From positions 20,849-84,848 of the forward strand of contig JAJDVQ010000013.1 of the NCBI GenBank assembly GCA_022826045.1: a stretch of 64,000 nt of DNA. The letters run 5' to 3'. Under the pieces are notes generated by a model. It saw only the letters and a list, made by a program, of their open reading frames with translations. It was not told where the DNA came from and did not search any database. This DNA comes from Acidimicrobiia bacterium. Its GTDB lineage: Bacteria; Actinomycetota; Acidimicrobiia; Acidimicrobiales; Poriferisodalaceae. The position numbers and the translations under genes were made by a program. Positions 35,800-64,000 of the stretch are shown one piece after another. Every line of letters begins with the position of its first letter. Position 1 is the stretch's first letter.

Positions 35800-35817
35800 A
35801 CGCATCTGTATCGCCAT

Positions 35818-36000
35818 CCTGCAACGAAGGGCGGGGAATATTCCCCGCCAAACTCGACGTCGAGGGTGAGCTCGCCTTGCCACAGCGTCATGCTTCAATG
35901 AAGGGCGGGGAATATTCCCCGCCAAACCTGCCGTGCTGGTGACCGCCCGCCGATGCGGATTCCGGCTTCAATGAAGGGCGGGGAATATTCCCCGCCAAAC
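35818..36000 (-). CRISPR. Three-repeat CRISPR array, type I-G associated
   Basis: Three 36-bp repeats lie at 35818-35853, 35892-35927 and 35965-36000, separated by spacers of 38 and 37 bp. The second and third are identical; the first differs at three of its first 12 bases. The centre is the 20-bp perfect palindrome GGCGGGGAATATTCCCCGCC. Read on the minus strand the repeat begins GTTTGG and ends TTGAAGC, a typical 3' handle, so transcription runs leftward with the cas operon, and the degenerate copy is the trailer-end repeat. The array is very short, so acquisition is rare, recent, or the array has been trimmed. Confidence 0.95.
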
Positions 36001-36171
36001 CCACTCTCGAAAACTACCGGCCCTGACCAGCGGATTTGAACGCAGTTGCGAGCGCTCCCTGTGTAGGAGCGCTCGGGAAGCATGAGATTCTGTTGTCAAG
36101 GTGCATTTCAGGCCCGTACACCGGGGCTGCGAGCGCTGCCCGGGCATCGGGGCCTGACCGGACCGCTCGCA
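36001..36171 (-). promoter_or_regulatory. CRISPR leader with inverted repeats
   Basis: The 171 bp between cas2 and the first leader-side repeat hold no gene. They contain a perfect 9-bp inverted repeat, GAGCGCTCC (36050-36058) and GGAGCGCTC (36066-36074), and an 8-bp pair TCAGGCCC (36108-36115) and GGGCCTGA (36150-36157). On the minus strand TTGACA (36094-36099) could be a -35 box, though I see no convincing -10 at proper spacing. The repeats could be adaptation or transcription sites, or the end of the cas transcript. Confidence 0.6.
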
Positions 36172-56343: not shown

Positions 56344-57252
56344 ATGGCAGAGGGCACCACGCTGGTACTGCTGCACGGGCTCGGCGCCAACCGCCACGTG
56401 TGGGACGGCGTGGCCAAGCTGTGGAAGGGCGACGTATACGCGCCCGACATCCGCGGACACGGCGAGGCGCCGTGGAGCGCTCCGTACTCGTTCGGGGCGA
56501 TGGCGGCTGACGTCGCGGAGGTGCTGAATCGTGACTGCAGCGGGGTCCACTACGCCGTCGTGGGGCACTCAATGGGAGGCGCAGTGGGGCTGGCACTGGC
56601 GTCCGGCTGGTTCGGGGCACCTCCCGCCGGGGCCGCGACCGTCGGTGTGAAGCTGCGCTGGTCCGACGAGGAGTTGTCCCGCATACCGGACCTTGCCGCA
56701 CGGCCGCCACGGGAGTTTCCCGACCGTGCCGGCGCCGTCGAGTGGTTCATGAAGCTCGCGGGCCTGCACGGCGTGCTCGCCGGCGACGACGCCCGCATCG
56801 CAGCGACCATCGAGGCGGGCGTGACCGGCCCGCTGCATCACGACGCCGAGCGGCGCGTCGCGGACGGCAGGGAACCGGCGCGCACCGACCCGCCCGAACC
56901 CCCAGAACCGCCAGAACCGCCAGAACCGCCAGAACCGCTGGACCAGTCCAGTCTGCCGCCAGCCTGGCGCACCGCCCAGGACCCGGCCACCATCGAAGTC
57001 GGCCCGCCCGACATGGCGGGTCTGCTCGCCGCAGCGAAGTGCCCAGTCTCCATGGCCATCGGCGAGCGCGACCCGCTGGTCGCAGCCGACCATCACGGCG
57101 ATCTTGCCGCAGCAGCGGCAGCCAATCCGCTGGCGGCCGGTGTGACTGCGCCGCATGTATTCGGCGGCCTCGGCCACAACGCGATGGTCGAAGACCCCCA
57201 CGCAGTCGCCGACTGGCTCACGAAGCTGCCAGGCTTCGCCGACGCCCGCTGA
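56344..57252 (+). CDS. Alpha/beta hydrolase with Pro-Glu repeat insert
   Basis: The 302-residue protein has LVLLHGLGANRHVWDG near the start, the nucleophile elbow VVGHSMGGAVGLAL (Ser), the Asp in AIGERDPLVAADHH and the His in GGLGHNAMVEDP. A PPE repeat insert sits in the lid region around residues 183-200, encoded by a short tandem repeat. It starts 73 bp after the crotonase gene and may hydrolyse an ester or thioester in the same route. Confidence 0.85.
   Translation: MAEGTTLVLLHGLGANRHVWDGVAKLWKGDVYAPDIRGHGEAPWSAPYSFGAMAADVAEVLNRDCSGVHYAVVGHSMGGAVGLALASGWFGAPPAGAATVGVKLRWSDEELSRIPDLAARPPREFPDRAGAVEWFMKLAGLHGVLAGDDARIAATIEAGVTGPLHHDAERRVADGREPARTDPPEPPEPPEPPEPPEPLDQSSLPPAWRTAQDPATIEVGPPDMAGLLAAAKCPVSMAIGERDPLVAADHHGDLAAAAAANPLAAGVTAPHVFGGLGHNAMVEDPHAVADWLTKLPGFADAR
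56893..56937 (+). repeat. 9-bp in-frame tandem repeat encoding Pro-Pro-Glu
   Basis: CCAGAACCG is repeated four times exactly (56902-56937), preceded by a variant unit. Nine is a multiple of three, so copy changes would lengthen or shorten the hydrolase lid without a frameshift. Confidence 0.9.
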
Positions 57253-62682: not shown

Positions 62683-62724
62683 CCCCCTTGCAGGCAGGGG
62701 GTCGCGGGTTCGGGTCCGGTCAGT
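62683..62724 (+). other. Hairpin after SDR stop followed by a tRNA T-arm-like stretch
   Basis: Right after the stop codon CCCCCT-TGCAGGC-AGGGGG forms a 6-bp stem with a 7-base loop, the size of a tRNA anticodon arm, and is followed by GTCGCGGGTTCGGGTCCGG, which resembles a T arm with one mismatch. No 5' half of a tRNA is present. It may be a simple terminator or a decayed tRNA end. The rest of the 150-bp gap is G/T rich and shows nothing else. Confidence 0.3.
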
Positions 62725-62832
62725 TCCGCCGGTTTGGGCGGGGTCGGGGGCGTTCGAGGTTCGTTTTCTGTTGGCTGATTGTCTATCGTGGTGGCTGTGA
62801 GTGTGCGTCGGCACATGCGAGGGAGGCTGGTG

Positions 62833-64000
62833 ATGGTTGTTCGTAGTGTTCGGGCTGGGCTGAGGAGCCTCCCCCCCCCCCTGTTTGGTTCGGCTGGGCG
62901 GCCGGGGCGCGTGAGGCGTGCTTGGGGGCGGCGCGTTGCGGCTGTCGCGGTGCTGTGCGTCGCGGTCGTGGCGGTGGCGCCGGCTGAGCGGGCCGGGGCG
63001 CAGAGTGTCCCGAACGTGTGGTTTTCCATTTTGGGGACTTTCCCGGCGCTGGAGCCGTCAGAAATACGGGCGGCAAATTTCCAGGTCAACCAGGATCTGA
63101 CCGCGCCGCTGACTGTCAGCTACACGATTGGCGGCACGGCGACTTGCGGGACGGACTACACCATCGCCGGCGCGGACTGCGCCCAAATGACCGGGACGTT
63201 CACCTTCCCGGCGGGCACGGAGAGGTTCTCCAATGTTCGGTTGCCGCTGACGATCCTGGCCGACGCGGTCCCCGACAACGGCGAGACCATCGTTTTGACC
63301 CTCGTCGACGGCGCCGGCTACAACCTGGGCTCGGGCACCGCGATAACGGCGATGATCGTTGAGAACTCCGGCCGGGCCGCGTTCCGGATCGGCGGCCTGC
63401 CCCAGGTGAACGGCACCCTGACGGGGCATCGGGTCTGCGACGACGCCGACGGCAACGGCACGGTCACCGGTTACCAGTGGCAGAGCAGAAGCAGTCCCGG
63501 AAGGGCTGCGTTCACCAATATCGCCGGCGCGACGTCCCAGAGCTACACCCTGACGCAGGCGGCCTCGGGCCATTACTTCCGGCTCCGTGTCGAGTACACC
63601 GACGGGAACAACGTCTCCACGCGGGTCTACTCGCCGATCGTCGGCCCGATCGGGCCGGTCGCGGCGGCGAACACGGTGGGGTTCGGCCGCGGCGGCTACA
63701 ACGTGCGCGAGGGCGACCCGCTGGAGCCGACGCTGACCTTCGGCTCGCCCACGGCGCAGGAGCAGACCTTCGAGATCGTCTTCCAGACTTGCGACGCCGA
63801 CCTGGGCAATGACGTCAGCGTGGATTACGCCGAACACAGCTCGTTTGTGCGCGACACCGATGTCTCCGCCGCGCACTCGGTGACGGTGCCCGCGGGCGTG
63901 ACCAGCCACACCTTCAGCCTGCCCGTGCCGGCGGACGGCGAGATCGAGGGCTACGAGACCTTCGTCATGGGCTTCGGCGCGATCCCGGCCGGGATCACCA
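62833..64000 (+). CDS. Secreted Calx-beta repeat protein (partial, runs off window)
   Basis: The frame is open from the ATG at 62833 to the window end (about 389 residues seen) and is missing from the ORF track because it has no stop here. A long N-terminal region with many Arg leads to a hydrophobic segment (VAAVAVLCVAVVAVAPA) and an AGAQS cleavage site, so it is exported. Next comes a Calx-beta-like domain (VSYTIGGTATCGTDYTIAG through GETIVLTLVDGAGY), an immunoglobulin-like segment (VTGYQWQSRSSP, YFRLRVEYTDGN), and the start of a second Calx-beta unit. Such proteins are surface or adhesion proteins. The signal-peptide coding region contains an 11-C run. Confidence 0.85.
   Translation, partial: MVVRSVRAGLRSLPPPLFGSAGRPGRVRRAWGRRVAAVAVLCVAVVAVAPAERAGAQSVPNVWFSILGTFPALEPSEIRAANFQVNQDLTAPLTVSYTIGGTATCGTDYTIAGADCAQMTGTFTFPAGTERFSNVRLPLTILADAVPDNGETIVLTLVDGAGYNLGSGTAITAMIVENSGRAAFRIGGLPQVNGTLTGHRVCDDADGNGTVTGYQWQSRSSPGRAAFTNIAGATSQSYTLTQAASGHYFRLRVEYTDGNNVSTRVYSPIVGPIGPVAAANTVGFGRGGYNVREGDPLEPTLTFGSPTAQEQTFEIVFQTCDADLGNDVSVDYAEHSSFVRDTDVSAAHSVTVPAGVTSHTFSLPVPADGEIEGYETFVMGFGAIPAGIT
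62871..62881 (+). repeat. 11-C homopolymer in the signal-peptide coding region
   Basis: Eleven consecutive C bases lie 38 bp into the Calx-beta gene. With 11 C the frame stays open; if the tract has 12 C, the frame reaches a TGA near 62910. This is a candidate slipped-strand switch. Confidence 0.9.

Follow-up and report, generated by a model that had tools for sequence, protein, structure and literature searches.

A poly-C tract in the signal-peptide leader of a predicted surface-protein gene, a probable phase-variation switch in uncultured Acidimicrobiia

Near the end of a 64,000-nucleotide stretch of DNA (the window) from an Acidimicrobiia bacterium, a gene for a predicted exported protein carries eleven consecutive C bases close to its start codon, which raises the question of whether this tract switches the gene on and off by changing its length. 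An earlier note on this DNA had proposed the gene as a candidate for phase variation and had placed the tract in codons 13–17, in agreement with our direct reading of the sequence, in which codons are counted from the ATG at 62833. Translation of the gene with 8 to 15 C bases gave a frame that is open up to the contig end at 8, 11, and 14 C, while at 9, 10, 12, 13, and 15 C translation stops after 50, 26, 51, 27, and 52 amino acids, respectively, reproducing the open frame at 11 C and the early stop at 12 C on which the proposal had been built. The repeat unit is not divisible by three, it lies near the 5′ end of the coding sequence, and a change of one or two units (9, 10, 12, or 13 C) leads to premature termination, which are the features of a contingency locus. 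We consider it likely that the tract is a slipped-strand translational phase-variation (contingency) locus within a genus-wide set of such tracts. The earlier proposal agrees with every comparative test (the paralog, the homologs, the genus-wide tracts, and the ON and OFF frames of orthologs). The features of the locus are collected in Table 1.

Table 1. Features of the window gene and its upstream region, in window coordinates
Feature	Position	Strand	Basis
Upstream segment in common with the C104 paralog, probably promoter and leader	62685..62810	+	C85/C104 alignment
Degraded tRNA-Ala gene remnant (3′ part), at the left boundary of the duplication	62687..62731	+	Matches the 3′ half of the tRNA-Ala beside the C104 paralog
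Shine-Dalgarno sequence AGGGAGG, well spaced, 6 nt 5′ of ATG 62833	62820..62826	+	Direct sequence reading
Start codon and pre-tract leader codons (MVVRSVRAGLRS...)	62833..62870	+	One synonymous difference from the paralog
C11 homopolymer, proposed slipped-strand ON/OFF switch, ON at 11	62871..62881	+	Direct reading and translation
Stop codon TGA, read at 10 or 13 C	62912..62914	+	Translation of length variants
Signal-peptide hydrophobic core (VAAVAVLCVAVVAVA), amino acids 35–49	62935..62979	+	Hydropathy 3.1 over 13 residues
Stop codon TGA, read at 9, 12, or 15 C	62985..62987	+	Translation of length variants
Start of the predicted mature surface protein, with PKD-like and weak Calx-beta matches, ended by the contig end	63001..64000	+	Domain matches

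The tract is the only C or G run of 8 or more bases within the window, where runs of length 4, 5, 6, and 7 occur 307, 69, 9, and 1 times, respectively. Extrapolation of this run-length tail gives an expectation of about 0.01 runs of at least 11 bases in 3.64 Mb, and a first-order Markov model gives 2.3. The genome contains 30 C/G runs of at least 9 bases, 6 of which form the start of contig C99 (L089:1-220), where long C and G runs alternate in the manner of assembly nonsense; these were set aside, as were homopolymer clusters resembling them in G003 and G004. The 24 runs outside the start of C99 include 18 of at least 10 and 16 of at least 11 bases, the longest being 16, and the 16 runs observed at the latter threshold are to be compared with the 0.01–2.3 expected. 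No A/T run of 9 or more bases was found anywhere in the genome. In the genus, represented by 11 genomes, every genome has between 6 and 26 C/G runs of at least 10 bases, as raw counts that in some genomes include artefact clusters; of 14 genomes representing the family's other genera, 3 have 1–3 such runs and 11 have none. An order-wide scan of 148 genomes for runs of at least 12 bases found none in 92, and many such runs in a few genera only, which comprise the window's genus and, for example, g45, g65, g77, and g92; some tracts in the g65 and g45 genomes also precede signal peptides. Chance in a GC-rich genome was ruled out as an explanation by the run-length statistics together with the order-wide counts. 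Elsewhere in the window are a tandem array of a 73-bp unit (35815–36002; 2.6 copies, 81% matches) and a 9-bp repeat, CCGCCAGAA, in 5.4 copies (56890–56938).

A comparison with relatives, suggested as a check in the earlier note, located the tract at the equivalent N-terminal position of a paralog on contig C104 and of homologs from two other species. The paralog, which is 82% identical, has C12 and is still in frame, with a net difference of +3 nt, and the homologs in G007 and G001 have C9 and C15, both also in frame. A further homolog (L094), at least 1736 amino acids long, has (GAGCC)11 at this site in place of poly-C and is likewise in frame. Poly-C lengths in the family are 9, 11, 12, and 15, and every homolog examined is ON. 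The residues encoded at the site vary (Pro, Gly, or a pentapeptide), with polyproline and polyglycine tracts occupying the equivalent position, so the conserved element is a slippable repeat at that place. A coding role of polyproline was rejected as the general cause, since polyglycine G tracts and the GAGCC repeat share the position. The scan of named genomes for the window protein returned two loci, L094 and L095, the former on a contig binned as a gammaproteobacterium (isolate jk18x25bins.5), and no relative of the protein was found on viral contigs. Relatives by the window protein come from metagenome-assembled genomes labelled jk18x, one of them labelled Acidimicrobiia; names of this form are used for bins from Caribbean Ircinia sponges (PMC9531527), and we infer a sponge origin for the window's organism. 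GAGCC arrays of at least 19 copies were also seen at other places: one of 19 copies in G001 (L225, G001:C243:2514-2608) lies apparently inside coding sequence, and contigs C76 and C5 of the window's genome both end in such an array (the ends of L223 and L224), so the two contigs probably meet there in a single locus.

The window gene is truncated by the end of contig C85, and what is encoded begins with a signal-peptide-like leader, with cleavage likely soon after the hydrophobic core, at ERAGAQ. The basic n-region and the hydrophobic core both come after the tract, which places the tract inside the signal-peptide leader. The description of the gene product in the earlier note as an exported Calx-beta protein fits the signal-peptide-like leader; the Calx-beta label is weak, with a score of 17.7 bits against the Pfam cut-off of 27 (PF03160) for the truncated fragment, and the PKD-like match of this fragment scores 24.1 against 27. 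Other tract genes of the same genome contain Calx-beta matches above the cut-off. Upstream of the gene, the C85 and C104 sequences are near-identical from just past the stop codon of an SDR gene to shortly before the start codon. An intact tRNA-Ala gene (anticodon TGC) lies just 5′ of the C104 paralog (L091:11772-11847), the window gene adjoins only the decayed tRNA-Ala 3′ piece, directly after the SDR gene stop codon, and ARAGORN found no tRNA in the window. These flanks suggest that the gene was duplicated, together with its leader, from a site linked to a tRNA gene.

Across the genus, a signal-peptide-like N-terminus was found in the codon-biased frame after the tract in 26 of the 118 tracts examined (22%); the rate at random positions was 2.3% for the window and 3.0% for those loci themselves. 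Two of the 26 cases (in G006) entered via homology, and a stricter count is 24 of 116; for a few loci, such as the L069 lipoprotein and the L071 exported protein, the frame was checked by hand. Tract genes of the window's genome encode a collagen-repeat lipoprotein, several Calx-beta proteins, a glycosyltransferase, a type ISP restriction-modification enzyme, and an SNF2 helicase with a NO VEIN domain, and those of the genus also include subtilases, methyltransferase-HNH enzymes, and others. The recurrent classes are surface proteins (Calx-beta, subtilase, and collagen-like) and restriction-modification or helicase genes, which are the classic phase-variable classes in Neisseria and Helicobacter. 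Some tracts, most of all in G010, are in genes of other kinds, such as a permease and an IclR regulator. Three G-tract loci of the window's genome (L079:3258-3272, L081:2202-2215, and L082:3463-3476) have a common leader (M..AN.R.RGGGG) and upstream region but differ in what follows, a pattern that would fit repeated use of one switchable start cassette.

Many tract loci have flanks in common with a tract locus in another species, and such sets vary in both length and frame. The SNF2/NO VEIN helicase gene reads through about 1092 amino acids with G12 in G000, and a close ortholog in G007 has G13 and meets a stop 12 residues past the start of the tract; in G007, a methyltransferase-HNH gene shifts frame exactly at a C10 tract. 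Neither of these contrasts depends on a guess about the start codon. One ortholog pair is ON at C14 in G000 and OFF at C13 in G001, another is OFF at C15 in G000 and ON at C13 in G002, and of a four-species set only the G000 member has its conserved leader in the reading frame of the signal peptide, the other three being out of frame. Tracts conserved in place, variable in length, and found in both ON and OFF frames are thus present across the genus. The type ISP genes of three species have tracts of 15, 12, and 10 C (L072:1683-1697, L190:1499-1510, and L133:2004-2013), none of them in frame with the nearest ATG, and the set that includes the tract on contig C72 is OFF, when read from the obvious ATG, in all species seen, at the same offset in three. 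Beyond the tract, genes that are OFF still have long open frames with a strong codon bias.

MutS was absent from all 11 congeners, and NucS, which does not correct indels (PMC8228993), is present in all of them. These facts bear on the alternative that survives best, that of an indel-prone coding repeat drifting slowly and uncorrected in a MutS-less genome, so that length differences between species reflect time and decay rather than switching. The length data here are between species only, several loci (the type ISP and C72 sets) are OFF in all species seen, and in Cutibacterium acnes the length of most tracts goes with the clade, suggesting that change is slow (PMC4746626), all of which slow drift would accommodate. 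It is nevertheless unlikely as an account of the tracts. The sister genera are MutS-less too and have almost no long tracts, and on this ground loss of mismatch repair was rejected as a cause acting alone; with the same repair background and no tracts in these genera, selection to keep the tracts appears to be a better explanation than mutation alone. Decay would also not account for tracts at signal-peptide leaders in more than a fifth of cases, for their persistence at orthologous sites, or for a pentanucleotide array where relatives have a homopolymer, and it is at odds with the long codon-biased frames that OFF genes retain.

A second alternative is that translation starts, or restarts, 3′ of the tract, in which case length changes would be harmless or would only tune expression. 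An ATG after the repeat in the L096 and L094 homologs (MRG...R) would give a standard signal peptide, as this alternative requires. In the window gene, however, the in-frame GTG codons at 62911, 62950, and 62968 were found to have no Shine-Dalgarno sequence at any of the three, and GTG 62911 is not conserved in the C104 paralog, leaving the downstream start that could have overturned the earlier proposal without support there. The block from the ATG to the tract differs from that of the paralog by a single, synonymous base, while about 20 nt before the ATG have diverged; this conservation, beginning exactly at the ATG that follows a strong Shine-Dalgarno sequence, suggests that ATG 62833 is likely the true start and that the pre-tract part is coding. 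We regard a downstream start as improbable.

Slippage of the polymerase or the ribosome on the tract could instead yield a fixed mixture of in-frame and out-of-frame products, with the DNA length mattering little. Runs as long as C11 can cause slippage during transcription, and the C72 set, with its constant OFF offset in three species, would be compatible with this, but the pentanucleotide repeat of the L094 homolog would not be subject to such slippage and the frame varies freely within other ortholog sets, making the alternative very improbable. That tract lengths or whole tracts are assembly or sequencing artefacts is hardly credible, even with homopolymer lengths in metagenome assemblies liable to error and some contig ends (the start of C99, the G003 and G004 clusters) evidently nonsense, given that tracts recur at orthologous sites with well-aligned flanks in independent genomes and that most sister-genus genomes have none, though with consensus assemblies of one genome per species as the source throughout, exact lengths may be off by one.

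Phase variation at the window gene is predicted to operate as follows. Slipped-strand mispairing in replication would lengthen or shorten the run of C that separates the start codon from the signal peptide, and the change would stay uncorrected with MutS absent and NucS not repairing indels. At 8, 11, or 14 C translation would continue through the signal peptide into a large protein that is secreted or at the surface (ON), and at other lengths it would end within about 50 codons (OFF). Length changes are presumably frequent and reversible, the protein is presumably exposed at the surface, and its switching may be expected to matter. Through poly-C and poly-G tracts genus-wide, with some pentanucleotide repeats, many surface and defence phenotypes would coexist in one population. 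On balance, though by a narrow margin, we favor the broader proposal that this genus of uncultured, probably sponge-dwelling Acidimicrobiia has a Neisseria-like phasome, in which tens of G/C tracts and pentanucleotide arrays switch signal-peptide surface proteins, restriction-modification genes, and helicase genes; similar expansions in a few separate genera of the order suggest that phase variation arose or was kept repeatedly in certain members, perhaps host-associated ones.

Repeat-slippage phase variation has been studied mostly in vertebrate pathogens and commensals. If the proposal is correct, the same strategy would operate in bacteria that lack MutS-based mismatch repair, either in symbiosis with an invertebrate or under pressure from phages. 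The loci form a concrete list, and reading their tract lengths from metagenome reads makes the extent of clonal diversity of symbionts in surface and defence genes directly testable; OFF genes in such assemblies may be mis-annotated as pseudogenes. A search of the open-access literature for phase variation in Acidimicrobiia, or as a trait of sponge symbionts, found none, an absence that is weak evidence, and the genus-wide phasome is apparently unreported.

The window locus is one of many of its kind, a known type of switch in a new lineage. Among Actinobacteria, long G/C tracts, some of them at surface-protein genes, are also found in Gardnerella (PMC11287997) and C. acnes (PMC4746626), where about 70% and 72% of tracts, respectively, lie between or upstream of genes; many tracts here are instead inside coding sequence, often just before a signal peptide. 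The phasomes described for Campylobacter, Helicobacter, and Neisseria, built on homopolymers (PMC6321876, PMC2823697, and PMC5084427), resemble the genus set in having many coding-associated tracts per genome, both shared and variable among relatives, and differ from it in their organisms, the present ones being uncultured, probably sponge-associated Acidimicrobiia known from assemblies. Phasevarions, which are phase-variable DNA methyltransferases (for example PMC5149525), have a counterpart in the tracts of the methyltransferase-HNH and type ISP genes, and the G007 methyltransferase-HNH gene with its C10 tract is a methyltransferase gene whose frame shifts at a repeat; any effect of the tract genes of this genus on methylation and a regulon is putative. 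The closest parallel for the window gene itself is provided by the opa genes of Neisseria, which carry (CTCTT)n in the sequence of the leader peptide (PMC3745409). The protein and the lineage here are unrelated and the repeats are mostly C or G homopolymers; in both systems the signal-peptide leader of a surface protein, a predicted one here, contains a non-triplet repeat, and a change in repeat length turns the frame on or off, and the L094 homolog has a pentanucleotide unit as well.
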